Source of the DNA: Myxococcus stipitatus
GTDB taxonomy: Bacteria > Myxococcota > Myxococcia > Myxococcales > Myxococcaceae
Direction of reading: 5' to 3'
NCBI RefSeq assembly: GCF_038561935.1
Contig: NZ_CP102770.1
Span: forward strand, 8,742,001 to 8,806,000
Length of the DNA: 64,000 nucleotides
Below, in pieces: positions 2,792 through 27,400 of this stretch (positions are counted from its first letter, which is position 1; every line of letters begins with the position of its first letter). Made by a program: the position numbers and the translations under genes. The notes beneath the pieces are model-generated. The model was not told the origin of the DNA and ran no database searches. It saw nothing but the letters and a program-made list of their open reading frames with translations.

Positions 2792-3043
2792 TCACTCCTC
2801 CGGTGCATCGAAGCGAGTCAGCGCCCATTCGAACCGAGGGAAGCGCGCTGCGAGGTCGAGCAGATGCCCTCGAAACTCCTCCGTCCGGTCGACGGGATCC
2901 AGCATGAGCAGCGGAAGGTATTCGGCGGTATCGAGGACCACAGCGAGCTCATCGCTCTTGCCCTCGTAGGCCATGCTCCTCGCCATGACGAGGACGCCGT
3001 TGAGGGCCTTGAGCGCGCTTCGTTGCCTGGCATCCACAATCAT
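2792..3043 (-). CDS. Small unknown protein downstream of the DUF416 gene
   Basis: 83 residues, acidic, predicted helical (MIVDARQRSALKALNGVLVMARSMA, then EYLPLLMLDP and LDLAARFPRFEWALTRF). I do not recognise a family. A good ribosome site (GGAGG, about 8 nt upstream) supports the ATG at 3043. It follows the DUF416 gene by 35 bp in the same direction and is probably co-transcribed with it. It converges with the CBS gene. No signal peptide, no membrane segment and no cysteines. Confidence 0.6.
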   Translation of the reverse strand: MIVDARQRSALKALNGVLVMARSMAYEGKSDELAVVLDTAEYLPLLMLDPVDRTEEFRGHLLDLAARFPRFEWALTRFDAPEE

Positions 3044-3078
3044 TCGTTGCCTCCGACGACAGACGATGCAACCTCAAC

Positions 3079-3681
3079 TCAGTGTCGGTCGATGTTGCTC
3101 GCTGCCGGGTTCCGCCATTTCCGGGCGAGTACCTCGATGTCGCTGCTGGACAGGGACATCGTCTCCAGCAGGTCGAGGTCCTCTCTCTGGCGCCTGAGTT
3201 CGCGTTGCATCAGCGGGTGCCGGAAGATCTTCTGCTCCAGTTCTGGCTCCTGAGAGTCATAGCGCTCCAGTTCCTGAACGTGCATGTCCACCGTTCCGCA
3301 TGCCAATGACGCTCCATCCACGACCTTCGCGGAATCGTCCTTGAGCAACAACTCCAAGATGGACGCACAGCACACGGCGGCATCAAGCCCCGCCGAAACA
3401 TACGCCGACTGGAAGTCCTCCGTGTCGGGGGTCATGTCCTCGCAATACCCGAGGCATGCTTCGATTTCGCCTCGCTCAACAGCATTGCCGGAGAGCTGTC
3501 TCCAGCCGAGGTCAAGCGCATCGCGAAGAGTTCCTGGATGACCCCAGCCATGGTGACGACTGAATGCGGCGTAGTTCGGGATGAGCCGTTCCGCGCATGA
3601 CAGGAGGAAGGCAAGCCGTGCATGGAGAGAGAGTTGGCCAATCCTCTGAGCGAGGGCATCCGGATTGAAAGGTTGTTCCAT
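3079..3681 (-). CDS. DUF416 family protein (YjaG-like)
   Basis: 200-residue cytoplasmic protein. LSLHARLAFLLSCAERLIPNYAAFSRHHGWG (residues 17-47) matches the DUF416 signature seen in E. coli YjaG, followed by LRDALDLGWRQL and the acidic SEDM/DTEDFQSAYVSAGLDAA region. The function of DUF416 is not established. It lies 19 bp downstream of the alpha/beta hydrolase and 35 bp upstream of a small unknown gene, all on the minus strand. The length fits the family (about 190-200). Confidence 0.8.
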   Translation of the reverse strand: MEQPFNPDALAQRIGQLSLHARLAFLLSCAERLIPNYAAFSRHHGWGHPGTLRDALDLGWRQLSGNAVERGEIEACLGYCEDMTPDTEDFQSAYVSAGLDAAVCCASILELLLKDDSAKVVDGASLACGTVDMHVQELERYDSQEPELEQKIFRHPLMQRELRRQREDLDLLETMSLSSSDIEVLARKWRNPAASNIDRH

Positions 3682-8591: not shown

Positions 8592-9263
8592 TCATGGGGT
8601 CTTCGTCGAGGCGAAGGGCACGTCCAGCACCGGCCGCGTCTTGGCGTCCGGCAGGTCGTAGTGCCACCACTCCATGCGGTTGGGGACGAAGCCCGCCCCC
8701 TCCATCGCCTCGCGGAGAATCTCCCGGTGCTTGCGCGAGGCCTCGGTGCCTCCCGCGTAGCCGTGGTGCGCCTCGGGCGTGAAGGTGTCGAAGGCCGTGG
8801 GCATCTCGACCTCCTTCCCGTCCAGCGTCACCATCGTCAGGTCCACCGCGCCGCCCCGGTTGTGGTTGGAGCCCTTGCGAGGGTCCGCCACGTAGCCGGG
8901 CACGGGCATGATCTTCCACATCTCCCACTGCACCGCGCGCGGGCGATAGCAGTCGTAGACCTTCAGCCGGTAGCCCTGGGGCCGCAGCACGTCGGCCGCC
9001 GCCTTCAGCTTGCTCGCGGACTCCGGCAGCAGCAGGCAGCGCGCGGAGTCGGGATACACCTTCTTCTTCAAGAAGTTGTCCGCCGTCGCGTAGCGGAGGT
9101 CCAGCGCCAGGTCCTGGACCACGGAGGTCGCATCGACCAGCGGCGCGATATCCCCCGCCTTCCGCGCCTTCGCGGGCTTGCTCTTCGCGGTGCTCGGAGC
9201 CTCGGCCAGCGCCGAGGTCCCCAGGCACAGCCCCAGCACCCAGGCCCACCGGCGCGCGCTCAT
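8592..9263 (-). CDS. ddpX: D-alanyl-D-alanine dipeptidase (peptidase M15D, VanX/DdpX-like)
   Basis: 223 residues with a signal peptide (about 1-20), so it acts outside the cytoplasm. It hydrolyses D-Ala-D-Ala-type dipeptides, probably in peptidoglycan turnover. The M15D zinc ligands are His134 and Asp141 ([10 protein letters not shown]) and His201 (EWWHY), with catalytic Glu198 and the transition-state Arg in CYRPRAVQ (Arg108). An exported form resembles E. coli DdpX-like recycling enzymes more than cytoplasmic VanX of resistance clusters. There are no vanHA genes nearby, so glycopeptide resistance is not indicated. The start overlaps the queC stop by 4 bp. Confidence 0.9.
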
Positions 9264-9958
9264 CCTCGAGCCCCCGCCGCGTAGCGCGTCGGGTCCGGGA
9301 CGCCCGCCTCCTCGAAGCCCTTCTTGCGCAGCATGCAGCTGTCGCAGCGTCCACAGGCGCCGCCCTGCTCGTCCGGGTCGTAGCAGGAGTGCGTCATGCC
9401 GTAGTCCACGCCCAGGCGCGTGCCCTCGCGGATGATGTCCGCCTTCGACATCCCCGACAGCGGCGCGTGCACGGTGAAGCGCGCGCCCTCCGCGCCGGCC
9501 TTCGTCGCCAGGTTGGCCATCGCCTCGAACGAGCGGATGAACTCCGGCCGGCAGTCCGGATAGCCGCTGTAGTCCACCGCGTTGACGCCGATGTAGAGGT
9601 CCGTGGCGTCCACCACCTCCGCCAGGCCCAGGGCCAGGGAGAGGAACAGCGCGTTGCGCGCGGGCACGTACGTCACGGGGACGCCGTGGCTCATCTCATC
9701 GGCCGGGCGGTCCTTGGGCACGTCGATGTCCGCGGTGAGCGCCGAGCCGCCAATCTGCCGCAGATCGATGCTCACGACGCGGAAGTCCTTCACGCCCATG
9801 ACCCGCGCGACTTCACGCGCCCGCTCCAGCTCCACCGAGTGACGCTGGCCATAGGAGACCGCCAGGCACACCGGCTCGAAGCCCTGGGCCTTCGCCATGG
9901 CCACACACGTCGTCGAGTCCAGGCCGCCCGAGAACAACACCACTGCTCGCTTCGTCAT
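9260..9958 (-). CDS. queC: 7-cyano-7-deazaguanine synthase QueC
   Basis: 232 residues. ATP-dependent conversion of 7-carboxy-7-deazaguanine to preQ0 in queuosine biosynthesis. The PP-loop SGGLDST (10-16) starts the protein, with [28 protein letters not shown] and [18 protein letters not shown] as in QueC. The C-terminal zinc site is Cys ([12 protein letters not shown]) followed by CGRCDSC. The ATG at 9958 shares one base with the upstream lipoprotein stop (TGATG) and the stop overlaps the dipeptidase start. No queD, queE or queF lies in the window, so the other pathway genes are elsewhere. Confidence 0.96.
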
Positions 9959-10557
9959 CAGTCCCTCCGCACTCCCTGCACCTTGTACGCCGTCTTGCAC
10001 GTGCTGGGAGTACACGTGCAGGGGCCCGGAAGGAAGACGTCCGTCAGCGAGCCACACGCCATGGCCACGTCGTAGCCGTTCTCCGTGGGCCCCGGCGGGC
10101 TGCCGTCCGGCGTGCCTCCGTCGAAGCGCAGGCAATCCCTGTTCAGCTCCCGCGACTGGCTGTCGCTGAAGAGCGTCACCTTGAGCGTCTCTTCAATCTT
10201 CGAGTCCTTGCAGTCGGTGCCGCACGAGGCGCGAGGCGCGGTGGCGCTCAGCGTCGAGTCCACCGTCTGCCCTTCGTACTTCGCGTCCCGGTTGAAGCCC
10301 TGCACGGTGAACCAGCCCACGCCCCCGTCTTCGTTCTTGGAGAACGTGCCCTCGAAGCGGAACACGCCCGCGTCGTCGAGCTGCGCGAACTCCGGCATGG
10401 ACGCATCACAGGTGGTGCCCGCCGGGTCGAGGCGGGCCTCGAACTGGAAGGTGCCCATGAGCTGGTTGCCCGGGTACACGGGGTCCGAGATGCAGGCCAC
10501 CGCCGTCACGACGGCGGCGGCGGGGAGGACAGAGAGGGCGAGGTGCTTCAGGCGCAT
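9958..10557 (-). CDS. Putative lipoprotein upstream of queC
   Basis: 199 residues. A signal sequence ends in a lipobox (VTAVAC, Cys22), giving a mature lipoprotein with several paired Cys (including [17 protein letters not shown]), which suggests disulfides outside the cytoplasm. The family is not recognised. Beta-rich segments such as [11 protein letters not shown] and [23 protein letters not shown] suggest a small beta-sandwich. The stop overlaps the queC start (TGATG), and the gene starts 21 bp downstream of the TPR giant. Confidence 0.7.
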
Positions 10558-10578: not shown

Positions 10579-13500
10579 CTACCCGGCGCCGAGCACGGAA
10601 AGGGCCACGGCCCGGAAGGCGCCTCCGCGAGCGAGCACCGCGCCCACATCCACCCGCGCCGGGTCACTCCCACGCACCTCGGCGTCCAGCCGCGCCAGGA
10701 CCCGCCCCGCCGCGAGCGACGCGGGCACCGCCTGGAAGGCCGTCACCGCGGCGGTCTCGAACCCGGACACCTCACCAGGACGCGAGAGCTTCACGCCAGA
10801 CTCACCCAGCGCCAGGGCCAGCGCGCACAGGTAGCCCAGCTCCACCGAGCCGAAGCACGAGAGGGCACCGGCCCCCAGCACCAGGTCCTCGGCGCTGGCC
10901 AGGTACGCCTCGACGCCGCCCACGGGGTCCACGTTCACCCGAAGCCCGCTCGCGCCCAACGACGAGAGGAGCGGGCGCAGCGCGGCGAACAGTCGCGGGA
11001 AGCGCTCGGCCGTCACCTGCAGCGCGTTCGCGGGGAGCGGATGGTGGAACCCCCCGGGGACGGGCAGCGGCGAGACGTGCGGCGCCGTCGCCGGCGCCGT
11101 GCTGGACGAGAGCGCGGCGCCCACGCCATCCGCCCGCTCGGCGAACTCCACGCGCCCGAGGAGCCGCAGCGCCTCCGCGAAGAGCGTCCAGCCATCCACG
11201 TCCAACGGTGAAGCGCGCAGCAGCTCCGGCCACACCTTCACGGCGAACGGCGCGCCCTCGGGCACGGGCGAGAGGCGCTCGCAGGACAGGCGGAGTCCCT
11301 CGGGGGACAGGACACCCGCGTCGAAGAGCCGCTCGGCGAGCCTCGCCGCGGGCGACACGAGCTGTGCGTCCAGATAGCCGCGCAGGATGGACTCCAGCAC
11401 CACCGGCTCATCGGTGAGCCGCTCGCGCAGGGCCAGGGCCTCTCCGGTGAGACCGCGCTGCTCCGCCAGCCTCGCGCGGCGGGCCAGGCGCTCCTCGGTC
11501 TCCGGCAAGGCCTCCAGCTGCGCGACGGCGTCGGCCACCTGGCCCAGCGCCTCGTAGGCATCCGCCAGTCGCTCGCGATGGGGCGACGCGGCGTCGGGCC
11601 CCTCCTCCACCGTCAGCCGCTCGGCGAGCGACACGAACTCGGCGGGCTGCCGCAGCTCATCCACCAGCGCCAGCAGGTTGCGCAGCGCCGGCATGCAGGA
11701 GGCGTCGGCGGCCAGCGCGCGCTCGAAGGCCGCACGGGCCTCTTCCGGCTTCTCCACCGGGCTGAGCAGCAGCTCGCCCTGCTCCAGGTGCAGCGTGGCG
11801 AGGACTCGCGAGTCCTCCTCCCCGTCGATGAGGCTCGACAGCGTGCGCACGGCGGCCTCGAAGCGGCCCAGCCCCATTTCCAGGGTGTGGCGCTCGCGCA
11901 GCAGCGACTTGCGGCGCGTGCTCCACCCTTCCGCCGCCATGGCCAGCGCTTCCACGCGCGCCGCGTCCGGCAGAGCCCGGACACGCTGGAGCACGGCCTC
12001 CGCGAGTCCCTCGGGGAGCTTCTCCAGCCCCGGCAGCAGCAGCGTGAGCCGCGCGGCGAAGGAGGCGTCCGAGGACAGCTCGTCCAGGGCACGCAGGCGC
12101 GGGAGCAGCGAGGCGTCCGCGGAGCGAAGCACCTCGTCGCGCAGCGCCACGGCGAACGCCAGGTCACGCGGGGCGGACAGGGCAGCGAGCTCCAGCAAGC
12201 CCTCCGCGTCCCCTTCCGCGCGCAGCCCATCCGCGAGCGCGGAGGCATGGGCGGTGTCCGCGTCCGGGTTGGCCGCCAGCGCCCAAAGCGCCTCGCGAGT
12301 GCGCGCGGCATCTCCGGCCTGCGCGGCCATGGCCAGCGCGTCCGTCAGCTCTCCCGCGGCCATCGCGGGCGCGAAGCCCACCTCGAGCGCCCGCGTGAAG
12401 GCGCCCAGCCGGCCAAAGCGCTCCGCGAGCTCCGAGGGCGGGAGCATGTCCGGCGCCTCGGTGGCGATGCGCTCGATGACCTCCAGCGCGTCGCCGTGGG
12501 CACCCGCCTTCTCCCAGAGGTCGGCCGCCTCCAGCAGCAGCGGCGGACGCTCCTCCGGCGAGGCCAGCCGCGCCGCTTGCAGCAGCGACTGCGCGGCCCG
12601 AGGCGCGTCACCCGACGCACGATACAGATGGGCGACCCGCAGCGAGGCGTCCACATCCGGCTCGGTCGCCGCCGCGGCCTTCGCCGCCTTCAGCGCCTCC
12701 GGCAGACGGCCCGCGCTCTCGAAGTCCCTCGCGGCGGACAGCAGGAGCACCAGCCGCTCACGGCCCGTGCTCAGCTCCGCGCGCGCCACCCGGACCTCGG
12801 CGCGGCGCGCGGGCCCGTCGCTCGACAGCTTCTCCAGCTCCTCGAGCGCGACGGCGTAGCCGGCCCCCGAGGTGCCGCGCTCCACCACCGCCTCCAGCAC
12901 CTCGCGAGCCCGCGAGGACTGGTCCGCCTCGCGCAGCAGCGCGGCCAGCTCCAGCCGCGCCAGGGCCGCCTCGTCCGCGTCCTCCAGACGCGGCACCAAC
13001 TGCTCCAGCGCCTCGCGCAGCCGCGCCGTCTCGTGCCGCTCGCGAAGGCCCGTCACCAGGGCCTTGAGCGCGGTGACGTCCTCGGGCGCGGCCTCCGCCG
13101 CGCGCTGCGTGAGGTCCCAGGCCGCGTCCAGGTCCGCGAGCGACTCGGCGGCCACCGTCGCGGCGGCCAACAGCAGCTCCGCGGCGCGAGAGCCTCCCGC
13201 CGCCTCCGCGCCGGACTCGTACACCGCCAGCAGGTCGCCATGGCGGCCCATCGCACGCAGGCCCGCCACCGCGCGGTCGATGACCGAGGCATCGGCGGGG
13301 CGCAGCTTCGCCAACGGCAAGAGCGCGTCGATGGCGTCCTTCGGGTCGTCGAAGAGGTCCGCCGCGCGGCGGTACAGCACCTCCGCCGTCGCCGAGTCCT
13401 CGGCCCTGCGCGCGAGCTGCAACGAAGCGCGGTACAGGCCCGGCGCGTTGCCCGTGCGCGAGTGGACCTCCGCCAGCAGCGACAGCGCCTCGCGTCCGCG

Positions 13501-16500
13501 CTCGCTGTCCGGCTCCAGCGCCACCACCGACTCGAAGGCGTCCGCCGCGTCGTGGTACGCGTTCGCGCCCAGCGAGGCATGGCCCAGCCGCAGCCACGTG
13601 CGCGCGCGCACGGCCAGGGGCAGCGCGTCTCCACCGGCCGACAGCAGGCGCCGGTCATACGGGCGCGCGGCGGCGGGGCCACCACTCTGTGCGGCCAGCT
13701 CCGCTCGCGCGGACAGCGCCTCCACGTCCTGGCCCGCGTTGGCCAGGTACGCGTCGAAGGCCTCCGCGGCCAGCAGTGCCTCGCCCGCGTCGAGCAGGCG
13801 GGTGGCTCGCTCGCGCCAAAGCGGCAGCGCCTCCTCGAGAGGAAGGGCGGCGGCGCGCTGGGCCAGCAGCTCCGACAAGCGGCGCACGTCTCCGGCCGCG
13901 CGCTCGCGCACGCGCTCGAAGGCCTCCGCGCTCGCGGGGCTCAGCTCGAAGGCGCGGTCCTCGCACAAGAGCGCGCGCTCCCGGGCACCCGCCGCCAGGA
14001 AGGCTCGCGCGGCGGCGAGGTAGCTGGCCGCCGCGTCCGCGTCCTTCTGGCGCTGGGCCCGGCGCAGCATCAGCTCCGCGAGCGACTGCGGGTCCCCCGT
14101 CTGCTCCAGGAAGTCCCGGTGACGGGTGAAGACGGGCTCGCGGAAGGGGTCGGCCTCCAGCAGCACCGCGTCGAACTCGGCGGCGTCCGCGTGCCGCTTC
14201 ACCTCGTGCAGCAGCTCCGCGGCCTGCGCGGTGAGGTCCAGGTCGTCGGGCCGCGCGGAGCGCGCGGCGATGAAGGCCGCGGCGGCCGCGTCCGGACGTC
14301 CCGCCCTGTCGCGATAGAGCACGGCCGCGCGCTGCAGCAGCTCCGCGCGCCGCTCGGTGTCCGCCTCGCTCTCGGCGCACTCCTCGTACCAGGCGGCCAG
14401 CTCCGCGAGACGGCCCTCGCGCTCCAGCAGCCGGGCCAGCAGCGCCTCGGCCTCGTCGAGCGAGCGGTCCTGTCGCAGTGCTCCGCGCAGGAAGCGCTCC
14501 GCCTCCTCCACGTCGGAGAGTACGCCCAGGTGCAGCTTCGCCAGCCGGAGCCGCAGCGAGGCCGCCTCCTTCGCGTCCTCCAGCAGCGGCAGCGCGCGCT
14601 CCAGCCAGAGCGCCTCCGCTTCGGCGTCGTCCCGGCGCTCGGCCAGCGCGGCGCCCAGCCTCGCGGTGCCCAGGTCCGCCGCCAGCGAGAAGGCCCGGTC
14701 CAGCGCGCTCTCCGCCGCGGGCAGGTCCAGCTTCACGTCGCGCAGCAGCTCCGCGCGCCGACGCTCACACGCGGCGGCCTCCGGTGCGCGGCCGCGCGAC
14801 TGCAACAGGTCCCGCGCGTCCGCCAGCGCCCGCAGCGCCTCGTCCGCGCGCCCGGTGTTCTCCGCGAGCCGGGCCTCTTCTTCGTACGCGGCCAGCGCCC
14901 CCGCCACGTCGCCCATCTGGAGGCTCAGCGCGGACACCTGGCGCAGCTCCGTGAGCAGCTCCAGCGAGCGGCCCGTCTCGCGGTAGAGCGCCGCGAGCTG
15001 GAGGCGCAGCGGCAGCGGCGACGACGCCATCTGCGCGGCGCGGGTCAGCAGCGAGGCCGCGACACCCGCGTCGGCGAGCGAGGCGCGCGACTTCTCCGCG
15101 AGCACCACCAGCCGCCGCACCGTGTCGTCGGAAGGCGCCAGCGCCAGCGCGTGGGTGACCCGCACCTCGAACGCGCCGCGCGGGTCGTCCTTCTCCAGCA
15201 GCGCGGAGAGCCGTTGCACGGCGGGCTCGCTCAGCGGACGCTCGACGAGCAGCTTCCGGTACGCGCTCACCGCGCGCTTCGTCTCACCCGCGCTCTCCGC
15301 CAGGTCGCCCAGTCGCAGCCACGTCGACTCGGCCACGTCGGGGGTCGCCGCGAAGTCCACCGTCGCGGCCAGCGTCTCCTGAAGCGGGAGGGCCTCCACC
15401 ACCGCGCCCCGCAGGTAGAGCAGCTCGGCCAGCGAGGCCAGCTCCTCTCCTCGCGCGGGGACCAGGGCGTGCGCCTTGCGCGCCAGCTTCAGCGCGCGGT
15501 CCAGGTCCTGGGCCTCACGCGCGTGCGCCGCGCCCTCACGCAAGAGCGCGGCGGCCTCGGTCGTCCCGGCGCTCTCGGCGGCGGTCTCCAGCAGGGCCGC
15601 GGCCTCACGCAGCTCGCCGCGTCCCGCCACCAGCGACACCAACTGGCGTCGCGCCTGTGCATCGCCCGGGGCGAAGCGCAGAGCCTGCCGCAGCGCCGCC
15701 TCGGCGGGAGCGGGCTGGCCCAGTCGCTCCAGATAGAGCGACGCCAGCTCCGAGTACATCCGCGCGGACTCGGCGGCGCCCGCGTGAGGGGCCTCCGCGG
15801 AGAGCAGCTCCGCCAACGCGCCCCAGTCCTCCAGCGAGCGCAGGGCACGCTGCAAGGACGCGGTGGCCTTCGCATGACGAGGCGCCAGCGCCAGCGCGGC
15901 CTCCAGGCTCTCACGCACCTCCGCGAGCTTCCCGGCCGCCTCCAGCAACGAAGCCCGCGCGAGCAGCGCCTCCACGCGACGAGGCGTGGGCCCCTGGCGC
16001 GAGGCCTCCGCGAGCGCGGCGGCCTCCTCGTCCGGACGCTCATCGCGACGCGCGAGGTCCGCCAGGGCGAAGTACGCATCGCAGCGCTCCGTCTCCGACG
16101 GCTCCAAGGCCACGGCCACGGTCAGCGCCTCGCGCGCCAGCTCCCGCGAGTCCTTCTCCGTCAGCACGCCGGCCAGCGCGAGCAGCCGCTCCCGGGCACG
16201 CGTCGCCAGCCGGGCATCCGCGCTCACCGCGCGACGCCATACTTCCAGCTCCCCCGCGTCGTCCTGCGACTCGCGAGCCAGCTCCGCCAGCGCGAGCAGC
16301 AGCGGCGCCGGACGGCGGGCCAGGCTCGCCGCCTCGGAGAAGTCATCGCGCGCGGCGGGAGTCCGACCGGAGGCGCGATGCAGCACCGCACGACGCGCGA
16401 GCAGCTCCGCGCGGTCCTCCCCCGTCGAGGACGCCACGAGTGCGCCGAGCAACTCCAGACGCTCGGCCTCTTCGTCGGCGGAGCCCGTGCCCGGAGGCGG

Positions 16501-19500
16501 CAGCAGGTCGAGCAGCGCTTGCGCCGCCCAGGTGTCGTGCGGCTCCTCCAGCCTCAAGCTGCGCAGCGAGTCCACCGCCGCGCCCGCGCGGCCGAGGCCC
16601 AGCGACAACTCCGCCAGCTCGCGACGCGCCGCGCGCCGAGGCTCCCCCGACAGCCGGGGCCACAGCTCCACCAGCAGGTCCGCCAGGGCCTCGCGAGCGC
16701 CCGCCTTGCGGTGCAGGTTGGCCAGCTCCACGCGGGCGTCCAGGTCCTCCGGGACGCGGATGCAGTACTCGGCCAGCAGTCGACGCGCGGAGTCCGTCCG
16801 CCCCGCGCGCACGGCGGCGCTCGCGGCCTTGCGAGTCAGCGCCACCCGCTCCGCTTCCCGGGGCGCGTCCGCGTCCACGGGAGGCAGTGCCAGCACCGCT
16901 TCGAAGTCTTCCAGCGCCGCGCGGGCATCGGTCGGCAGGCGCAGCTCACCGCGCCGCTGCCGCGCGGGCGCGAAGGTCGCATCGCGCTCCAGCGACTCGG
17001 CGAGGAACACCTCTTCGCGGCTGGTGCCCGCCGCCAGGAGCGACGCGCGGAAGAGCAGCTTCGCGCCAGCGCGGGCCTCGGGCACGAGCACGGCCCGGCG
17101 CGCGTACAGCCTCGCGGCCTCCAGCTTCTCGCCCCGCTCCAGCTCCAGCTCGGCCAGCGACTCCAGCACCTCGGCGGCCAGCGGCCCCTGAGGACTCGCC
17201 TCCAGCGCCGCCGCCAGCCGCAGCAGCGCGGCGGACTTCTCGCCCCGCTCCAGCAGCGCACGGGCGCTCTGGAGGAACAGGGGCGCGGCCTCCTCGGCGC
17301 GCTCGGCCCCCATGAGCGCCTGCGCGCGGCCCGCCCACAGCTCGGCCAGGGCCTGCGTCTCGCCCGCCTCCGTGTAGAGCGACTCCAGCCGCGCGGCCAG
17401 CGCATCGTCCAGGCGGCGAAGCGGCAGCGCCTGCGCATACGCGGCGATGGCGCCCTCGCGGTCTCCGAGCATCTCGCACGCGCGACCCAACCGGGCGCGC
17501 ACGTCCGCCAGCTTCTCCGGCGCGGCGGTGCGAGGCAGCGTCGACAGCAGCGACTCCAGCGCCTTGCGCGCGTGCTCCGGACGCTCGCAGCGCAGGGACA
17601 GGTCCGCCAGGTCCAGCAGCACCGCGGAGTCAGGCGCCAGTCGCGCCGCCTTCTCCAGCGCCACCAGCGCGTCACCCACCCGGCCCAGGCGGGCCTCCAG
17701 CACTCCCGCCAGCTCACGCAGCGCCGCCGCCGCGAGCCGCTTGTCGCCTTGCGCCTCCGCCACCCGCGCGCGCTCCTCCAGCGCCACGGCGAGCCCCGCC
17801 ATGTCCGCGCGCTTGCGCTGCAGGGCACACAGCTCGCCCAACGCGGGCAGGTCATCCGGCTCCGCGCGCAGCACTTCCTGGAGGGAGTGCACCGCCAGGT
17901 CCAGGTCGAAGGCCAGGTCGCGCGCGGCCACCGCGAGGCGGCGGTACTTCTGCGCGCGCTCCTTCACGTCCTGCGCCAGCCGAGCCAGCGCGGACAGGCA
18001 CCGCGTCAGCAGCGGGCCGTCACGACGGGCCTCGGCCAGGGCGAGGAGGGACTCCAGCGCGGGCCGATGGTCCGCGTCCGCCTCCAGCGCGAGCAGCAAC
18101 AGCCGCTCCGCCTTCTCCGGCTGCTGGAGCCGCCCACGGAACAGCTCTCCCGCCTCCGCCCAGGACGCGGCCCTCTTGGCGGGCTCCTCCTGGAGCGCGG
18201 CGGACTTCTCCAGCGCATCGGCCAGCTCCAGCGCCTTCCCGGTGATGCGGAAGTACGGGACCAGCTCCTCCAACGCCACCGCGTCGCGAGGGTCCAGCGC
18301 CAGCGCGGACTCCAGGTGCTCACGCGCCCGCGCCGGGTCTCCCAACCGCGAGCGGTACAGCCGCGCCAGCGCGTGGTGGCTCGAGTGCGCGGCACGCCGA
18401 ATCCCCTCCGAGCGAGGCGCCGGTCCCGCCAGCTCCAGCGCCTGCTGGTAGCCCGCGAGCGCCTCCTGCAACCGGCCCAGGCCCTCCGCCACGCGAGCGG
18501 CGGCGAACAGCGGCTCGGGCTCGCCCGGCAGGAGCGACACCGCCTCGCGGTAGCGCAGCAGCGCGTTCTCCGCCTGCTTCAGGCCCTCTTCCCACACGCG
18601 GCCGGCCATCAGGTCGGCATGGCCCACCCGGTCCAGCTCGTGCCGGGCCATCGACACTTCGCGCAGGCGGTCCAGCGCCTTCAGCGCGCGAAGGTGCTCA
18701 CCGCCGCGATGGCACAGCTCACCCAGGAGCAGCAGCGCATCCGGCTGGTCCGGGGACAACCGCAGCGCCGCCTCGCAGTGCAGGCGAGCCCCGGCGATGT
18801 CGTCCTCCGTCTGCGCGCACAGCCGCGCCAGATGCACATGTGCATCCGCGGCCTCATGTGGATCTCTCGCGAGTGCCGCGAGCCGACGATAGGCCCGCAC
18901 CGCGCCCGCCCTGTCGCGCGCCTGGTCCGACGCACGCGCCAGCGCCTTCAGCGAAGGCAGGTGGTCCGGCTTCAGGCCGAGCAGCTCATGCAGCGCCTTC
19001 ACCGCCACCTGCGGCGCGGTGTCGCGAGAGCAGCGCGCGGCGGCCTCGGCCGAGAAGAACGCAGCGGCCTCTTCCGACGTGCGACGCGCGAGCGCACACA
19101 GCGCCAGATAGCGCTCCGCGGCGCGGGCTCCTTCACCGCGACGCTCGCGCACCACGGCCTCGCCCCACAGCGCCGCGGGGCTCCTATCGCGCCTGCGCTG
19201 GAGCGTGGCGGCCACATCCAACGCCAGCTCGTGCGCCTGAGGGTCCGCCACCAGCAGCGACAAGAGCCGCTCCGCGGCGAACGGATGCGCGTCCTGCGCG
19301 TCCCCCGCCTGGAGGTACAGCCGCCGGGCCTCGGCCAGTCGCCCCTGCGCGACGAGCGACTCCGCGTCCGCGAAGGCCCGCGCACCCTCCAACGTCAGCA
19401 GCAGCTCCTCGTCCGGCGCCGACGGCGGAGGCAGTCCCCCCGCGGCGAAGCGCAGACGAAGCCCCGTGCTGGAGACCTCCGCGGCGGACAGGCGCGCGGT

Positions 19501-20127
19501 GTCCAGCGACGGCATCTTGTAGCCACGGCTCACCGCCGCGAGCTGACACAGCGCCGGCAGCACGCGCGTGCTGAAGCCCGTGGCGCCGCGTGCCTCCACC
19601 TCCGGAACCAGCGCCAGTGCACCCACCGCGGCGGACAAGAGCCCCGGCACCTGCACCGACGGCGTGGAGGAAAACCCGTAGAGCCGCACGTCGTACAAGT
19701 AGACGGCGAGCTTCTCGCCATCCGCGTCGAAGGCGACCTTGAACGTGAAGGGCGTGCGCTCCGGCGCGGGCAGCCGGCCCTGTCCCTCCAGGTAGCCCGG
19801 GCGGAAGTGCAGTCGCACCTCCTCGAGCCCCGCCAGGCGTCCCGCCAGCTCCGCCACCCGCCGCGTCACCAGGTCCGCGTCGACGGACAGCTCCAGGAAA
19901 CCAAAGTGCAGCTTCTTGCGCTGATAACGCGTAGCCCCGGCACTGACGTTGAAGGGGAAGCTGACGTCCGGAATCTGGAGCGCGAAGTCGGAGATGCGCA
20001 GCCCCGGCATCACCTCCAGCGCGGGGAACCCCACGAAGGCCCTGCGGTCCAGCAGGCGCAGCTCGGGCGCGGCGGCGCGCGCATCGGGCGCCACGGTGGG
20101 CTTGGGGGAGTCACTCTCGTTGGCCAT
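10579..20127 (-). CDS. Giant TPR-repeat protein (3182 residues)
   Basis: No signal peptide or membrane segment is visible, so it is probably cytoplasmic. Residues about 20-240 form a non-TPR, beta-rich N-terminal domain (LRISDFALQIPDVSFPFNVS, ATRYQRKKLHFGFLELSVDADLV, LAVYLYDVRLYGFSSTPSVQ), reminiscent of lipid-binding beta folds but unassigned. From about residue 260 nearly the whole protein is Ala/Leu/Arg/Glu-rich helical pairs with TPR spacing and the W/L-G-Y-A-F-A-P-like positions (for example ALLRYREAVSLLPGEPEPLFAAARVAEGLG). A shorter compact C-terminal domain (about 3000-3182) follows a Pro-rich hinge. TPR arrays scaffold protein complexes. It is transcribed away from the Ser/Thr kinase across a 45-bp gap. 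The long open frame on the opposite strand is a base-composition shadow. Confidence 0.85.
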   Translation of the reverse strand: MANESDSPKPTVAPDARAAAPELRLLDRRAFVGFPALEVMPGLRISDFALQIPDVSFPFNVSAGATRYQRKKLHFGFLELSVDADLVTRRVAELAGRLAGLEEVRLHFRPGYLEGQGRLPAPERTPFTFKVAFDADGEKLAVYLYDVRLYGFSSTPSVQVPGLLSAAVGALALVPEVEARGATGFSTRVLPALCQLAAVSRGYKMPSLDTARLSAAEVSSTGLRLRFAAGGLPPPSAPDEELLLTLEGARAFADAESLVAQGRLAEARRLYLQAGDAQDAHPFAAERLLSLLVADPQAHELALDVAATLQRRRDRSPAALWGEAVVRERRGEGARAAERYLALCALARRTSEEAAAFFSAEAAARCSRDTAPQVAVKALHELLGLKPDHLPSLKALARASDQARDRAGAVRAYRRLAALARDPHEAADAHVHLARLCAQTEDDIAGARLHCEAALRLSPDQPDALLLLGELCHRGGEHLRALKALDRLREVSMARHELDRVGHADLMAGRVWEEGLKQAENALLRYREAVSLLPGEPEPLFAAARVAEGLGRLQEALAGYQQALELAGPAPRSEGIRRAAHSSHHALARLYRSRLGDPARAREHLESALALDPRDAVALEELVPYFRITGKALELADALEKSAALQEEPAKRAASWAEAGELFRGRLQQPEKAERLLLLALEADADHRPALESLLALAEARRDGPLLTRCLSALARLAQDVKERAQKYRRLAVAARDLAFDLDLAVHSLQEVLRAEPDDLPALGELCALQRKRADMAGLAVALEERARVAEAQGDKRLAAAALRELAGVLEARLGRVGDALVALEKAARLAPDSAVLLDLADLSLRCERPEHARKALESLLSTLPRTAAPEKLADVRARLGRACEMLGDREGAIAAYAQALPLRRLDDALAARLESLYTEAGETQALAELWAGRAQALMGAERAEEAAPLFLQSARALLERGEKSAALLRLAAALEASPQGPLAAEVLESLAELELERGEKLEAARLYARRAVLVPEARAGAKLLFRASLLAAGTSREEVFLAESLERDATFAPARQRRGELRLPTDARAALEDFEAVLALPPVDADAPREAERVALTRKAASAAVRAGRTDSARRLLAEYCIRVPEDLDARVELANLHRKAGAREALADLLVELWPRLSGEPRRAARRELAELSLGLGRAGAAVDSLRSLRLEEPHDTWAAQALLDLLPPPGTGSADEEAERLELLGALVASSTGEDRAELLARRAVLHRASGRTPAARDDFSEAASLARRPAPLLLALAELARESQDDAGELEVWRRAVSADARLATRARERLLALAGVLTEKDSRELAREALTVAVALEPSETERCDAYFALADLARRDERPDEEAAALAEASRQGPTPRRVEALLARASLLEAAGKLAEVRESLEAALALAPRHAKATASLQRALRSLEDWGALAELLSAEAPHAGAAESARMYSELASLYLERLGQPAPAEAALRQALRFAPGDAQARRQLVSLVAGRGELREAAALLETAAESAGTTEAAALLREGAAHAREAQDLDRALKLARKAHALVPARGEELASLAELLYLRGAVVEALPLQETLAATVDFAATPDVAESTWLRLGDLAESAGETKRAVSAYRKLLVERPLSEPAVQRLSALLEKDDPRGAFEVRVTHALALAPSDDTVRRLVVLAEKSRASLADAGVAASLLTRAAQMASSPLPLRLQLAALYRETGRSLELLTELRQVSALSLQMGDVAGALAAYEEEARLAENTGRADEALRALADARDLLQSRGRAPEAAACERRRAELLRDVKLDLPAAESALDRAFSLAADLGTARLGAALAERRDDAEAEALWLERALPLLEDAKEAASLRLRLAKLHLGVLSDVEEAERFLRGALRQDRSLDEAEALLARLLEREGRLAELAAWYEECAESEADTERRAELLQRAAVLYRDRAGRPDAAAAAFIAARSARPDDLDLTAQAAELLHEVKRHADAAEFDAVLLEADPFREPVFTRHRDFLEQTGDPQSLAELMLRRAQRQKDADAAASYLAAARAFLAAGARERALLCEDRAFELSPASAEAFERVRERAAGDVRRLSELLAQRAAALPLEEALPLWRERATRLLDAGEALLAAEAFDAYLANAGQDVEALSARAELAAQSGGPAAARPYDRRLLSAGGDALPLAVRARTWLRLGHASLGANAYHDAADAFESVVALEPDSERGREALSLLAEVHSRTGNAPGLYRASLQLARRAEDSATAEVLYRRAADLFDDPKDAIDALLPLAKLRPADASVIDRAVAGLRAMGRHGDLLAVYESGAEAAGGSRAAELLLAAATVAAESLADLDAAWDLTQRAAEAAPEDVTALKALVTGLRERHETARLREALEQLVPRLEDADEAALARLELAALLREADQSSRAREVLEAVVERGTSGAGYAVALEELEKLSSDGPARRAEVRVARAELSTGRERLVLLLSAARDFESAGRLPEALKAAKAAAATEPDVDASLRVAHLYRASGDAPRAAQSLLQAARLASPEERPPLLLEAADLWEKAGAHGDALEVIERIATEAPDMLPPSELAERFGRLGAFTRALEVGFAPAMAAGELTDALAMAAQAGDAARTREALWALAANPDADTAHASALADGLRAEGDAEGLLELAALSAPRDLAFAVALRDEVLRSADASLLPRLRALDELSSDASFAARLTLLLPGLEKLPEGLAEAVLQRVRALPDAARVEALAMAAEGWSTRRKSLLRERHTLEMGLGRFEAAVRTLSSLIDGEEDSRVLATLHLEQGELLLSPVEKPEEARAAFERALAADASCMPALRNLLALVDELRQPAEFVSLAERLTVEEGPDAASPHRERLADAYEALGQVADAVAQLEALPETEERLARRARLAEQRGLTGEALALRERLTDEPVVLESILRGYLDAQLVSPAARLAERLFDAGVLSPEGLRLSCERLSPVPEGAPFAVKVWPELLRASPLDVDGWTLFAEALRLLGRVEFAERADGVGAALSSSTAPATAPHVSPLPVPGGFHHPLPANALQVTAERFPRLFAALRPLLSSLGASGLRVNVDPVGGVEAYLASAEDLVLGAGALSCFGSVELGYLCALALALGESGVKLSRPGEVSGFETAAVTAFQAVPASLAAGRVLARLDAEVRGSDPARVDVGAVLARGGAFRAVALSVLGAG

Positions 20128-20172
20128 CGCGGGAGCCCGGACGCTACCACGGGGTCCAAGCCCCCGAAATTT

Positions 20173-22869
20173 ATGACAATCCCTCGCCCGGACAGCAGGC
20201 GGCGGGGCGGCGAGGCCCCAGGGGGACCCTCAGATGTTCGTCATGCGCGCCGGACGGAGTTCGGACAAGATGCGCCCGGCGTGCTGGCTCCCGACTCTCT
20301 CGTCCTCGACGGTCGCTTCCGGGTCCTCCGTCCGTTGGGCTCGGGCGGCATGGGGGAAGTGTACCTGGGTGAACAGGTCTCCTTGGGCCGCAAGGTGGCC
20401 ATCAAGGTCCTTCACCATGACCTCAACGCCCAGCCCGGCATGGCCGAGCGCTTCAAGCGCGAGGCCCGCCTCCTCTCCGCCGTCGAGCACCCCGCCGTGG
20501 TGCGCATCGTCGACTTCGGAGAGTCCGGCGACCACGCCTGTCTGGTGATGGAGTTCGTGGAGGGCGAGAGCCTCTTCGACGTCCTCGCCCAGGGCCCCAT
20601 GGCCCCGGGGCGCGCGCTGCCGCTGCTGCACCAGCTCGCCGAGGGCCTCGCCGCCATCCACGACAAGGGCATCATCCACCGGGACCTGAAGCCGGAGAAC
20701 GTCTTCATCTCCCCCGGCGCGCGAGGTGAGCAGGCGCGCCTCTTGGACTTCGGCATCGCGCGCCTGGTGGAGCCGGACGCGCAGAGCAACGTCAGCCAGG
20801 TGGGCGTGGTGCTCGGCACGCCGGAGTACCTGTCGCCGGAGCAGGCCGTCGGCGCGAAGGTGGACACGCGCAGCGACCTGTACACCTTCGGCGTGCTGAC
20901 CTACCGCGTGCTCGCGGGCCGCCTCCCCTTCGATGGGCCCCAGGCGCGCCACTTCCTCGCGCAGCATGCCTCGCACGCCCCGCTGCCGCTGGACCGCGCC
21001 GCGCCGTCGCTGTCGCGCTACATCGGCCTGCTGTCGCTGGTGATGCGGCTGCTCGAGAAGAACCCGACGAAGCGGCCGCAGAACGCGCACGAGCTCGCGG
21101 ATGCCCTGGCCGCCGCCCACGCGTCCCTCTCCGTGCTCACCCCGGGCCTGGGCACGCCCGTCTACAGCAGCCCCGTCCCGAGCAACACCACGCCGTCGGG
21201 CACGTCCGTCTTCGGCGCGGGCGGCACGGCCCCCGGCACTCCGAGCCCCAGCGGCACCGCGGTCTTCGGTGGCGCGGATGCGGTGGCGCCCTCGGTGGGC
21301 CCCAGCGGCACCTCCGCCTTCGGCGCCGTGGAGGCGCCGCTGCCCATGCCCCCGCGCGCCAGCCAGGGCACGGCCGCGTTCGGCGTGGAGCCGGTGGCGC
21401 GCTCGAACACGGCCACCTTCGGAACCGCGCGGCCCGCCATCACGGGACCTTCGCTGTCGAGCAGCAACTCGGTGGTGCGACCGCAGAACCTGACGGTGAT
21501 GCTCACCGACATCCAGGGCTTCACCGAGCGCACCAGCCGGCAGACGCACGAAGAGAACGCACGGATGCTGGAGACGCACGACCGGCTCTTGATGCCGCTG
21601 GTGCGAGACCACGAGGGACGTCTCGTGCAGAAGCGCGGAGACGCGCTGCTCGTGGTGTTCCGCTCGCCCACCGCGGGCCTGCTGTGCGGCATGGCCATGC
21701 AGGACCGGCTGTGGCGACACAACCAGACGCTCCCCGAGGAGGAGCGGCTCCACGTGCGCGTGTGCCTGCACGCGGGCGAGGTGCTGCTGACCTCGGACAC
21801 CGTGCTGGGCGAGCCGATGGAAGTGCTCGAGACGGTGGAGCACGTCGCCGCCGCGGGCGAGGTGACCTTCACCGAGGCGGTGAACCTGGCGCGCAACCGC
21901 GCCGAGGCGGACGTGGAGCCGTGTGGCTCCATCACCCTGCCCGCCCGCGAGGAGCAGCTCCAGCTCTACCGCTGCCTCCGCGCGGCGGAGGGCCCGCCCT
22001 TCGGCGGACGCTTCGAGAAGCAGAGCGCCCTCGCGCTGAGCCTGGCCCCCGCGCTGCGCAAGACAGGCGTGGCCCTGGCCTCCTTCAAGGCGGGCCTCCG
22101 CGCCTTCTCGCTGAAGGACGCCCTGCGCTCGGGCCTGTCCCCCGCGAGGCTGAAGCAGGGACTGACGCGGACGGTGGCGTTCGCTCGCGCGAAGCCGCGA
22201 CAGGCCGCGGCGGTGTTCGGAGCCCTGGTCCTCCTGGGCGGCGGCGTGGCGTGGGTCGTGTACCGCAGCAGCCCCGCCGTACACGCCATGTCCCTCCTGG
22301 AGGACGGCCACAAGACCGAGGCGCTCGCGGTGCTCAACGCGACCTCCAACGAGGAGCAGAAGCAGGCCCCCGTGCGGCGCGCGCTGGCGGCCACGCACCA
22401 TGCGCTGGGCAACCACGACAAGGAGCGGGTGCTGCTCGCCACGCTGGACGCGGAGGGCCGCGCGGCGGTGGAGGACTCCGTGCTGGACGGGCTCGCGGAG
22501 GACTTCGGCCGCGGCGACACCGAGGACCTCGCGCGACTGCTGGGCACCTTCCCGAAGGAGCGCATCCGCTCGCACTTCCTGGACCGCGCCGAGGAGGACT
22601 TCTCTCCCACGCAGTGGGGCGCGCTGCGCTACCTGGATGCCATCAAGGCCACCGAGGGAATCGACCTCGTGGTGGCGTACACCCAGGCGCTGGACGGCAA
22701 GGACTGCGGCGTGCGCCGCGTCGCCGCCCGACGCCTGGGACAGCTGGGGAACCTGGACGCCATCCCCGCGCTCGTCCGACTGGCCGAGTCGACCTCCTCC
22801 AAGAGCGGAGACTGTGGCCAGGACGAAGCGAACCGGGCCATCCAGAAGCTCAACAAGAAGGGCGGCTGA
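20173..22869 (+). CDS. Ser/Thr protein kinase fused to a degenerate class III cyclase domain, with one TM helix
   Basis: 898 residues from the ATG at 20173 (a GTG at 20281 is an alternative that keeps the whole kinase). PknB-type kinase, residues 48-315: GSGGMGEVYLG (56-66), Lys78 in VAIKVL, HRDLKPEN (169-176, Asp171), DFG (192-194) and GTPEYLSPEQ, so all catalytic residues are present. A Ser/Thr/Gly/Pro linker (322-436) holds five copies of (S/Q)(G/N)T-x-x-FG. Cyclase homology domain 437-600: both metal Asp are present (Asp446 in LTDIQGFT, Asp490 in KRGDALLVVF), but the Asn and Arg of the VNxAAR motif are replaced (GEPMEVLETVE), so cyclase activity is doubtful. TM 676-697, then a helical, HEAT-like exterior C-terminus. 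Divergent from the TPR giant, whose scaffold could be a partner (inference). Confidence 0.9.
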   Translation: MTIPRPDSRRRGGEAPGGPSDVRHARRTEFGQDAPGVLAPDSLVLDGRFRVLRPLGSGGMGEVYLGEQVSLGRKVAIKVLHHDLNAQPGMAERFKREARLLSAVEHPAVVRIVDFGESGDHACLVMEFVEGESLFDVLAQGPMAPGRALPLLHQLAEGLAAIHDKGIIHRDLKPENVFISPGARGEQARLLDFGIARLVEPDAQSNVSQVGVVLGTPEYLSPEQAVGAKVDTRSDLYTFGVLTYRVLAGRLPFDGPQARHFLAQHASHAPLPLDRAAPSLSRYIGLLSLVMRLLEKNPTKRPQNAHELADALAAAHASLSVLTPGLGTPVYSSPVPSNTTPSGTSVFGAGGTAPGTPSPSGTAVFGGADAVAPSVGPSGTSAFGAVEAPLPMPPRASQGTAAFGVEPVARSNTATFGTARPAITGPSLSSSNSVVRPQNLTVMLTDIQGFTERTSRQTHEENARMLETHDRLLMPLVRDHEGRLVQKRGDALLVVFRSPTAGLLCGMAMQDRLWRHNQTLPEEERLHVRVCLHAGEVLLTSDTVLGEPMEVLETVEHVAAAGEVTFTEAVNLARNRAEADVEPCGSITLPAREEQLQLYRCLRAAEGPPFGGRFEKQSALALSLAPALRKTGVALASFKAGLRAFSLKDALRSGLSPARLKQGLTRTVAFARAKPRQAAAVFGALVLLGGGVAWVVYRSSPAVHAMSLLEDGHKTEALAVLNATSNEEQKQAPVRRALAATHHALGNHDKERVLLATLDAEGRAAVEDSVLDGLAEDFGRGDTEDLARLLGTFPKERIRSHFLDRAEEDFSPTQWGALRYLDAIKATEGIDLVVAYTQALDGKDCGVRRVAARRLGQLGNLDAIPALVRLAESTSSKSGDCGQDEANRAIQKLNKKGG

Positions 22870-24439: not shown

Positions 24440-27400
24440 TCAACCCTCCCAGGTGGACAACATCTCTCGCACCCGCGCGTACCTCTGGAGGAGCGCGGCG
24501 CGATGGGCGGTGAACATCACCATCGAGCCGATGACGATGAGCCCCAGCACGAAGAACGAGGCCGCGGCGATGCGATGGTCCCTCATGCCGAAGCGCACGA
24601 GGTTCGCCGCGATGCACGTCACCATGAACGCGGTGCCCAGATACACGTAGGAGCGGATGCGCAGCGCGATGCCGAAGGCCACGCCCACCACGCAGAGCAC
24701 CACGCACAGGAGCATCGCCAGGCTGTCGTTGAACATCAGCGGCTTCCACGCCCCCGCCACGTAGATGAGCGTGACGGCGACCCCGCGCAGCTGCGCGTAC
24801 GCGGCGCTCTCCAGCCCGGTCCGGAACACTCGCAGCAGCGCCAGCAGCGAGAGGCCCGCGGGGATGACATAGAACTGGGGCTCCCCCTCGCCCGTCCCGT
24901 GCCAGACGAGGAGCAGCGCCAGGTTGAAGGCCAGCACCGACGCAATCGAGGCCACGCCCCTGCGGGACGGATGCGACGCCAGCGCGGCGAAGTGCGCGGC
25001 ATGCCCCACCAGCAACGCGGCCACCGTGAGCGGCTCATGCCACGGCGCGGAGAGCAGACCCGCGAGCGGGAAGAGGAACGCGCCCCACAGCGCCGGCCCT
25101 CGGAAGACCGTCAGGCCGGAGCCCTCGCGCTGCACGAGCAGATACAGGCCCGTGAACAGCGCGCCACCAACCAGGGCCGCGAGGGTGTCTCCCGTGCCCG
25201 GCTGCGCGCCCATGCCCAACAGGCGCACGGACAGGTAGCCCAGCGCGAGCACCGCCTGCGACAGGTACGCGGCGATTTCGTCCTGCTCCCGCACCGCGCG
25301 GCGCACCAGCGCAAACAGCAGCACCACGAACGCCGCGCTCACGACGAGCGCCTCGCGCAGCGCATCGGCATGGGCCCCCAGCGCCGACAGGCTCGCGAAG
25401 ACCTCCGCGAGGGCGATGACGGTGAAGCCCAGCCCCACGATTCGGCGCCACTTCACGCTCGCGAGGAACAACGCGAGCGCGGCCAGCACGGCGCTCGCCG
25501 CGCCGAAGTACGGGAGGATGAACGCGGAGCCTCGGCCCGACGAGTACACCGCGCCCAGGTGCATCAGCGCGCCATGCAGCGAGACGAGCGAGGCCAGCCA
25601 GCCCACCACCTCACGCGCGGGCCGCCGCCACACCACCGTCCACGCGGAGCCCAGGCCCAGGAGGAAGCACAGCGGCGTGCCCGCGTGCTCCAGGTCGCGC
25701 AGCGCCGCCAGCGACAGGAGCGCCAGCACCCAGCCGCCGTGATGCAGCGCCGCCCCCACGCGCACGCCTCGCGCATCCAGCGCCATGCCGCCCACGCACA
25801 ACACCAACCCCGCGCCGCTGACGACCACCGGAATCCAGGGCAGCGACACGGTGGCCACCAGCGCCGCCGCGAGCAACCCGGTGGCCACGTTGGCCATCCA
25901 CCGCTCGCGCGCCACCATCAGCATCAGGGACGTCACCAGCGCGCCCATCGCCACGGCGGGCTCGAGCGAGCCGGGACCGGAATCCACCAGCCGCCCCAAC
26001 AGCAGCAGCGCCAGCGTGCCCGCGCCGCCGACCCACAGCGGCTCGCTCCAGGTGCCGTCCAGCCCCGGCGTCAACCTCGAAGCCACCGCGTCCAGCGTGC
26101 GCTGCACCGCGCCCAGCTGGCAGAGCGCCGACAGCACCGCCGCCCCCAGCGCCACGCCGATGAGGGCCAGCCCCGCCTCGGGCCGCCACTCCAGGAACCC
26201 ATGCGTGTCCGTCTGCCCCAGCATCGCGAGCGCGAGCGCCCAGACCGCGGGCACGAACAGCCACCGCCGCGACAGCAGGAACGCGGCCAGGGTCAGCACC
26301 CCCGCGACACCCGCCAGCCTCCAGGGCGACGGCTCGTCCGCCACCGGCAGCACCGCGATGACGAGCGCAGTGAGGACCGCGCCCCACCGGAACCGCACAT
26401 CCGGAGGACTCCGGAAGAAGGCCCACACCGCCGAGGGCACGTGGTGCTCGGCAAGCGCCAGCGCCAGCAGCAGGCCGGTGACGACGGGCCGGGCCTCCGG
26501 AACGAAGAGGAGCAGCAGCGCGGCGCCACACACGCGCAGGCTCGGACGAGGCCCGGGCATCAGCGCCAGCGAACCGGCGAGGACATACAGGACCTCGGGC
26601 GCCACCCACGGCCGCAGCATCACCAAGGGGGTGATGAAGGCGAGGCTGACCTGCATGCCCAGGGACAGCGCGTTGCGGGCCGACACCTCGCGCGAGCGCA
26701 GCAGCAGGGAGCTGAACGCGGGGACGTGCTCGACCGCGCGGGCCACGGCCAGCGCCACCAGCGGGAACACATACAGCCAGGCCGGAGACGCACCGCCGAT
26801 GGCCAGCAGCCCCACGAAGACATAGGGCCCCGAGAGCGCGGCGAGGTACGGCAGGCGGTTGGCGCGCGTCCACAACAGCGGGAGCACCATCGCGCCCGAG
26901 ACCATCCACGCCGGATGCGCGTCGTCCCAGCTCAACACCGAGAGCAGCAGCACCAGGCCCGACGACACGGTGGCCACCCACGCGAAGCGGCGGCCTCCCG
27001 CGCCGATGGCCAGCACCGAGGGAATCTCCTCCGCCACCGCGAGCAGCGCGAACACGGCCGCCAGGCCCAGCAGCGCCACGGGCCCCACCGTGTACAGCCC
27101 CGCCGTCGCATACAGCGCGGACACCGCGAGGCTGAGCCCCGCGGGCAGCGCTCGCGCGGTGAGCAGGACCGCGAGCGCCGAGCCCGCCAGGTACAGGCTC
27201 TCCCACGACGCGGACGTCGCCTTGACGGCCACCAGCGGGAAGACCCAGGTCACCAGGGCCGCGGTGGTGGTGCTCGCGCTGCGCCCCCAGCGCGCCGCCG
27301 CGACGGAGGACCCCAGGCCCCAGAGGATGAACAGCGCCAGGGACATCCCCGGCAGCATCAGCCCTCCCCACTGCACGGAGAGGGACGGAAGGTCGGGGAG

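Follow-up and report, generated by a model that had tools for sequence, protein, structure and literature searches.

What might a myxobacterium do with a single protein of 3182 residues, composed largely of tetratricopeptide repeats (TPRs)? The question is raised by a stretch of 64,000 nucleotides of the genome of Myxococcus stipitatus (contig NZ_CP102770.1, positions 8,742,001 to 8,806,000), referred to here as the window, in which an initial annotation, made from the sequence letters, had described a very large TPR gene divergent from a protein kinase gene, and had read its product as a very large scaffold, which fits the evidence presented below. The answer proposed here, with a probability of roughly 0.5, is that this product (the giant) would be a cytosolic scaffold of the same class as the gliding protein GltI (AgmK), equipped with a head that may dock on lipids or the membrane. 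The giant shares with this class an extended TPR solenoid, capped at its end by a protease-like domain that lacks the catalytic motif HExxH, it is present in single copy across much of the phylum Myxococcota, and its tail is homologous to that of GltI, while the function proposed for it is drawn from these features.

The gene lies on the minus strand, at positions 10579-20127, as a single open reading frame (ORF) that begins with ATG, in a Myxococcus-like host genome of 10.17 Mb. The end given originally, 20172, takes in the 45 bp that separate the gene from the ATG of the kinase (20173), a distance that was itself confirmed, as was the presence of one large TPR gene. Orthologues support the gene, and its frame is under purifying selection, given that the ratio of nonsynonymous to synonymous substitution rates (dN/dS) is 0.05-0.14 for residues 20-833 and 0.23-0.38 for the rest of the array. 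No feature resembling a signal peptide is visible at the N-terminus on inspection of the sequence, made with no predictor, and the giant is treated as cytosolic for this reason.

The TPR solenoid extends from residue 233 to about residue 3006 (positions 11110..19431, minus strand), where Pfam returns, above its cut-offs, TPR-type models and one ARM-repeat model, with nothing else on the giant, and NCBIfam returns no match above its own. A single-repeat hidden Markov model (HMM) built in this analysis recovers 19 clear TPRs between residues 324 and 2808, with a mean of around 0.1 in each shuffled protein, and the solenoid would, judging by its length, have room for around 80 repeats. Its best-conserved part is the first block, at residues 233-833 (17629..19431, minus strand). 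Among the Myxococcaceae orthologues (n=20), the conservation of residues 233-533 is at least as high as that of the N-terminal domain at longer distances, as in locus L046, where identity reaches 81% in these residues, in comparison with 65% in the N-terminal domain and 35-56% in later parts of the array. Both the identity profile and the dN/dS values place the strongest constraint in the N-terminal domain and in the first TPR block (residues 233-833) and, because constraint is highest there, the first TPRs (around 18 of them) probably hold a specific conserved partner, and may be the key binding surface of the protein.

The last 160 or so residues of the giant (about 3024-3182; positions 10582..11058, minus strand) form a separate domain, which AlphaFold models at a predicted local distance difference test score (pLDDT) of 96.8. 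Outside the TPR part, the best structural matches of this domain are to BepA, at Z 8.9 (136 residues) and 7.7, followed by the M48-type peptidase 3c37 (Z 7.7), ZMPSTE24 (Z 6.3), and HtpX (Z 5.6). A profile of C-termini from the phylum matches the M48 peptidases of the same genomes at an hhalign probability of 64% (E 7e-5, 177 columns), with the M48 profile matches ranging over 64-68% and the unrelated profiles tried reaching 0.1-0.9% with the same queries; locus L116 is not part of the combined C-terminal profile, and the non-family profile contains neither L113 nor L116. The tail profile recovered, from the sequences of the Protein Data Bank (PDB), five designed proteins over the TPR part and one weak match. 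In contrast with the M48 peptidases, the HExxH motif is absent from the last 330 residues of all 42 closed giants, and the residues LALAL are aligned opposite the HExxH region of M48; the full-length and C-terminal counts omit L040 (whose frame is interrupted at 2233 aa), L065 (located at a contig end), and the shorter or open frames. The domain is a pseudo-peptidase, with a fold like that of the M48 peptidases (BepA, Ste24, and HtpX) and the minigluzincins. BepA likewise carries TPRs.

The tail also provides the connection with GltI (AgmK, MXAN_4863), a component of the Agl-Glt gliding machinery. In the same genome, gltI was found through its neighbors, as a 4091-aa TPR giant located between an FHA/myxo_SS_tail gene and a zinc-ribbon/myxo_SS_tail gene, a setting comparable with that given for the G1 cluster in part of PMC3169522. 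This locus is approximately 1.9 Mb from the window gene, which is not located between gltG/gltH and gltJ, and the possibility that the window gene is gltI itself was rejected, gltI being a separate locus. The GltI tail matches the C-termini of the deeper members of the giant's family at an HMM E of 1e-15, and at an hhalign probability of 96.5% over 246 columns, with five shuffles giving at most 0.2%; the match to the Myxococcaceae (genus- or family-level) tails alone is weak (HMM E 0.001, hhalign 0.3%). The tails of the two proteins are homologous by these profile comparisons. GltI is like the giant in its TPR solenoid, the lack of an obvious signal peptide, its homologous C-terminal domain, and its phylum-wide occurrence, but unlike it in its length, in being encoded by a separate gene beside GltG- and GltJ-like genes, and in the absence of any match, in the GltI of the same genome, to the N-terminal domain of the giant. 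The available excerpts on SgmX and Bd2492 describe cytosolic TPR effectors of MglA, which bind a polarity switch and act on behalf of an envelope machine; by that description, they resemble the giant as cytosolic TPR adaptors, although they are far smaller (353-1060 aa).

Tails of the GltI type are present in 121 of the 146 phylum genomes, on many frames of about 4100 aa and on others of about 1700-2200 aa, which form a third set; their profile was built from 10 of 20 loci, those with the anchor motif used for excision. In the co-occurrence table, which omits five of the 146 genomes, 104 have both the head of the giant and a GltI tail, 15 have neither, 17 have the tail only, and five the head only (141 genomes; Fisher p 7e-8, uncorrected for phylogeny). 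The phylum holds several giants that share one kind of cap, among which the product of the window gene is set apart by its distinctive head.

This head (residues about 20-232; positions 19432..20070, minus strand) was correctly recognized at the outset as a non-TPR domain without an assigned family: both of the motifs pointed out in it lie within residues 1-232, and no Pfam family reaches threshold there. Structure prediction of the N-terminal region, which the initial annotation had recommended, produced an AlphaFold model with a mean pLDDT of 85, whose best structural matches are members of the TULIP superfamily of tubular lipid-binding proteins, in which a curved antiparallel sheet wraps around a helix. 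When re-aligned with VIA-align, only five chains reached a Z of at least 5, and every one is a TULIP, that is, CETP (Z 6.2, 137 residues, 3.8 A), BPI (Z 6.0 and 5.3), SPLUNC1 (Z 5.2), and LBP (Z 5.2), while the clostridial TULIP P47 occupies ranks 8 and 10 among the matches. The DSSP assignment gives a strand at residues 74-83, a helix at 84-97, four strands, a second helix at 157-170, and two further strands at 211-218 and 222-229. An excerpt of PMC6791001 describes the bacterial TULIPs as a core preceded by one strand (-1) and followed by two (+1/+2), with which the head agrees in the order of its elements, an agreement that concerns order and not geometry.

A number of results weigh against this interpretation of the two ends. 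The Z values of 5-6 lie under Z 8, the level below which the tool advises caution, and may reflect no more than a common arrangement, and Foldseek alone returned no significant match for the head (E of at least 0.1), with START proteins ranked first. The Pfam family LmeA matched one of 30 members, weakly (E 0.0029), and none of the 29 members of a broader set; this match was not regained in 25 re-scanned members, so that its source is one of the five others. Across 58 genomes of the phylum, LmeA produced three sub-threshold matches and none above the cut-off, and it had no match on a Rhodococcus plasmid. A relationship by sequence to the DUF4403-type TULIPs was rejected (hhalign 0.2%), and the head profile found nothing relevant among the PDB sequences. 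The bacterial TULIPs covered by the excerpt of PMC6791001 are, in addition, either anchored or secreted, which would make a cytosolic member unusual. At the other end, the C-termini of the window gene's own family reach 5% against M48 when the deeper relatives are left out, and the GltI tail alone gives no match to M48.

These doubts leave some room for the alternative that the head is another curved domain of sheet and helix which binds protein, in which case the giant would be a pure protein-protein scaffold. The modest Z values and Foldseek result, together with the lack of a robust sequence match to the TULIP families tried (LmeA and DUF4403), speak for this possibility, but it is made doubtful by the TULIP identity of all five chains at or above Z 5, and of ranks 8 and 10, and by the order of the structural elements. 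The head is described here as TULIP-like, rather than as a TULIP, given the weak sequence support: it resembles the superfamily (CETP, BPI, LBP, SPLUNC1, and P47, and the bacterial YceB, DUF4403, DUF2140, and LmeA/DUF2993) in its predicted fold and element order, and differs from it in its weak sequence link, in being cytosolic as judged from its sequence, and in its fusion to a giant solenoid.

Under the preferred reading of a GltI-class scaffold whose head docks on lipid or membrane, the head would most likely take up a lipid or another hydrophobic ligand, or bind to the cytosolic side of the inner membrane, while the dead-protease end would bind a partner without cutting it. The giant would thereby organize an envelope machine at the membrane, or tether it there, and the kinase would be a later, lineage-specific regulator.

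The giant is widespread in the phylum. The N-terminal 261 residues have a match in 30 of 41 near relatives, and in 111 of the 145 genomes of the order, while a profile of the domain matches 139 of 195 Myxococcota genomes (118 of the 149 better assemblies); one matching genome has two N-terminal matches, and every other has one. The domain usually sits on giant frames, with the complete frames of more than 2400 aa spanning 2673-4852 aa in length, and 5795 aa as the maximum for an open frame. Shorter frames are found at a few loci (L040, L051, L052, and L118, for example), through either frameshift or real shortening, and three reduced genomes (2.1-2.7 Mb) retain giant frames of about 2970-2995 aa. 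A scan of GTDB contigs, with the order-level N-terminal alignment A1 as the query, found 63 loci, in Myxococcus, Pyxidicoccus, Corallococcus, Archangium, Hyalangium, Citreicoccus, Anaeromyxobacter, and unclassified relatives, with names that are myxobacterial, "Deltaproteobacteria" or "Proteobacteria", except for one record; with this query, the range outside the Myxococcota is poorly covered. The exception (BNCN01000012.1, titled Comamonas sp. KCTC 72670) carries an N-terminal domain 93% identical to that of Myxococcus, and its label looks wrong.

The neighboring genes vary with depth. The divergent Ser/Thr kinase (898 aa; 20173..22869, plus strand) has a kinase domain, a cyclase-like domain, and a HEAT-like C-terminus, and the initial annotation had suggested that the giant might be linked to its signaling. 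This proposal is partly supported: within the genus, the kinase adjoins the giant in 24 of 25 genomes (the 25th being divided across contig ends), but the pairing is lineage-restricted: the kinase is directly divergent from the giant in 13 of the 33 wider loci fetched, which include several other genera of the family, and does not adjoin it at the reduced-genome, Anaeromyxobacter, or other deeper loci. Because the giant persists there without the kinase as a neighbor, it is older than the pairing. The conserved linkage and the intact-looking HRD and DFG motifs would favor a giant that is mainly a platform or substrate of the kinase, although this is rather unlikely, given the retention of the giant without this neighbor, the divergent rather than co-directional genes, and the matches in relatives searched outside the genus, which are partial, limited to the kinase domain, and 38-48% identical. 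The kinase may regulate the giant in Myxococcus and close genera, but lies outside the ancient unit.

The cyclase-like domain of the kinase is of the class III type, and its repeats are HEAT-like. An asparagine-arginine motif is usual in class III cyclases; by eye, the metal aspartates of this domain are kept and the asparagine-arginine motif looks altered. A plus-strand ATG ORF at 11578-22869 (3763 aa) was rejected as a real gene, being a GC-rich shadow antisense to most of the giant; it is in frame with the kinase, and a gene caller could fuse the two.

Directly downstream of the giant is a small lipoprotein-like gene of 199 aa (9958..10557, minus strand), whose stop codon overlaps the start codon of queC (9260..9958, minus strand), and beyond queC, on the same strand, is a gene of the D-Ala-D-Ala dipeptidase family. 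Among the 32 order-level loci with closed frames, the lipoprotein gene comes after the giant in 31, at times overlapping its stop codon, although 14 of these 31 recoveries are independent, as the HMM was trained on 17 of the same loci; outside the order, it is found at none of 13 loci. As queC is downstream of the giant in 31 of the 33 fetched loci, a role in queuosine or tRNA metabolism might be imagined, but the giant has no enzyme-like domain, and the linkage was not seen at the loci inspected outside the order, which makes this role highly improbable. Both genes are older neighbors of the giant than the kinase, and no neighbor is common to different lineages at the inspected loci outside the order. 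A defense role for the giant was rejected, PADLOC having given no match for the giant or the lipoprotein, while the kinase matches kinase models broadly.

In two deep lineages, secretion or pilus genes are found upstream of the giant. In one (loci L102-L106, L110, and L111), a conserved run at 1-4 kb comprises a type II/IV secretion ATPase, a small membrane protein, and an F5/8 type C-like protein, with Pfam applied to L105 only. At L107 (13176-19421, minus strand), genes for CpaB, two T2SSF proteins, an FHA protein, and a GH57 glycosidase are directly upstream of the giant and co-directional with it. Such settings would suit a giant serving as an accessory scaffold to a secretion or pilus apparatus of the Tad/Flp type, but the ATPase of the first lineage is about 2 kb away, an opposite-strand gene may intervene in several loci, and secretion or pilus genes were not seen at the other inspected loci, including those of the relatives of L107, so that this version is quite unlikely.

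Elsewhere in the window, a 1833-aa ORF (24443-29941, minus strand) has a zinc-ribbon-like N-terminus, an apparent membrane segment, and a coding-like GC content at third codon positions (0.94), and matches no Pfam family at 1e-5; a 1835-aa ORF opposite it looks like its shadow.

A bolder version of the GltI-class scaffold, to which only a small part of our confidence extends, is that the phylum would have a second envelope machine, related to that of gliding and found throughout the phylum, with the giant as its core scaffold; in this machine, a cytosolic bacterial TULIP would read or move lipids at the inner membrane, coupled through the solenoid and the dead-protease cap to the rest. In the titles, abstracts, and passages of the open-licence literature searched, no description was found of the giant, of a TULIP-like domain in such a giant, or of a pseudo-peptidase end on GltI.

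The role of the giant looks basic to these bacteria. It is a single-copy protein common to much of one phylum, and kept even in reduced genomes. The shared dead-protease domain ties it to GltI, a gliding giant that is itself poorly understood, and its head suggests that TULIP-like domains may be found inside the bacterial cytosol. Myxococcus xanthus provides a genetically tractable model in which each of these points may be tested.

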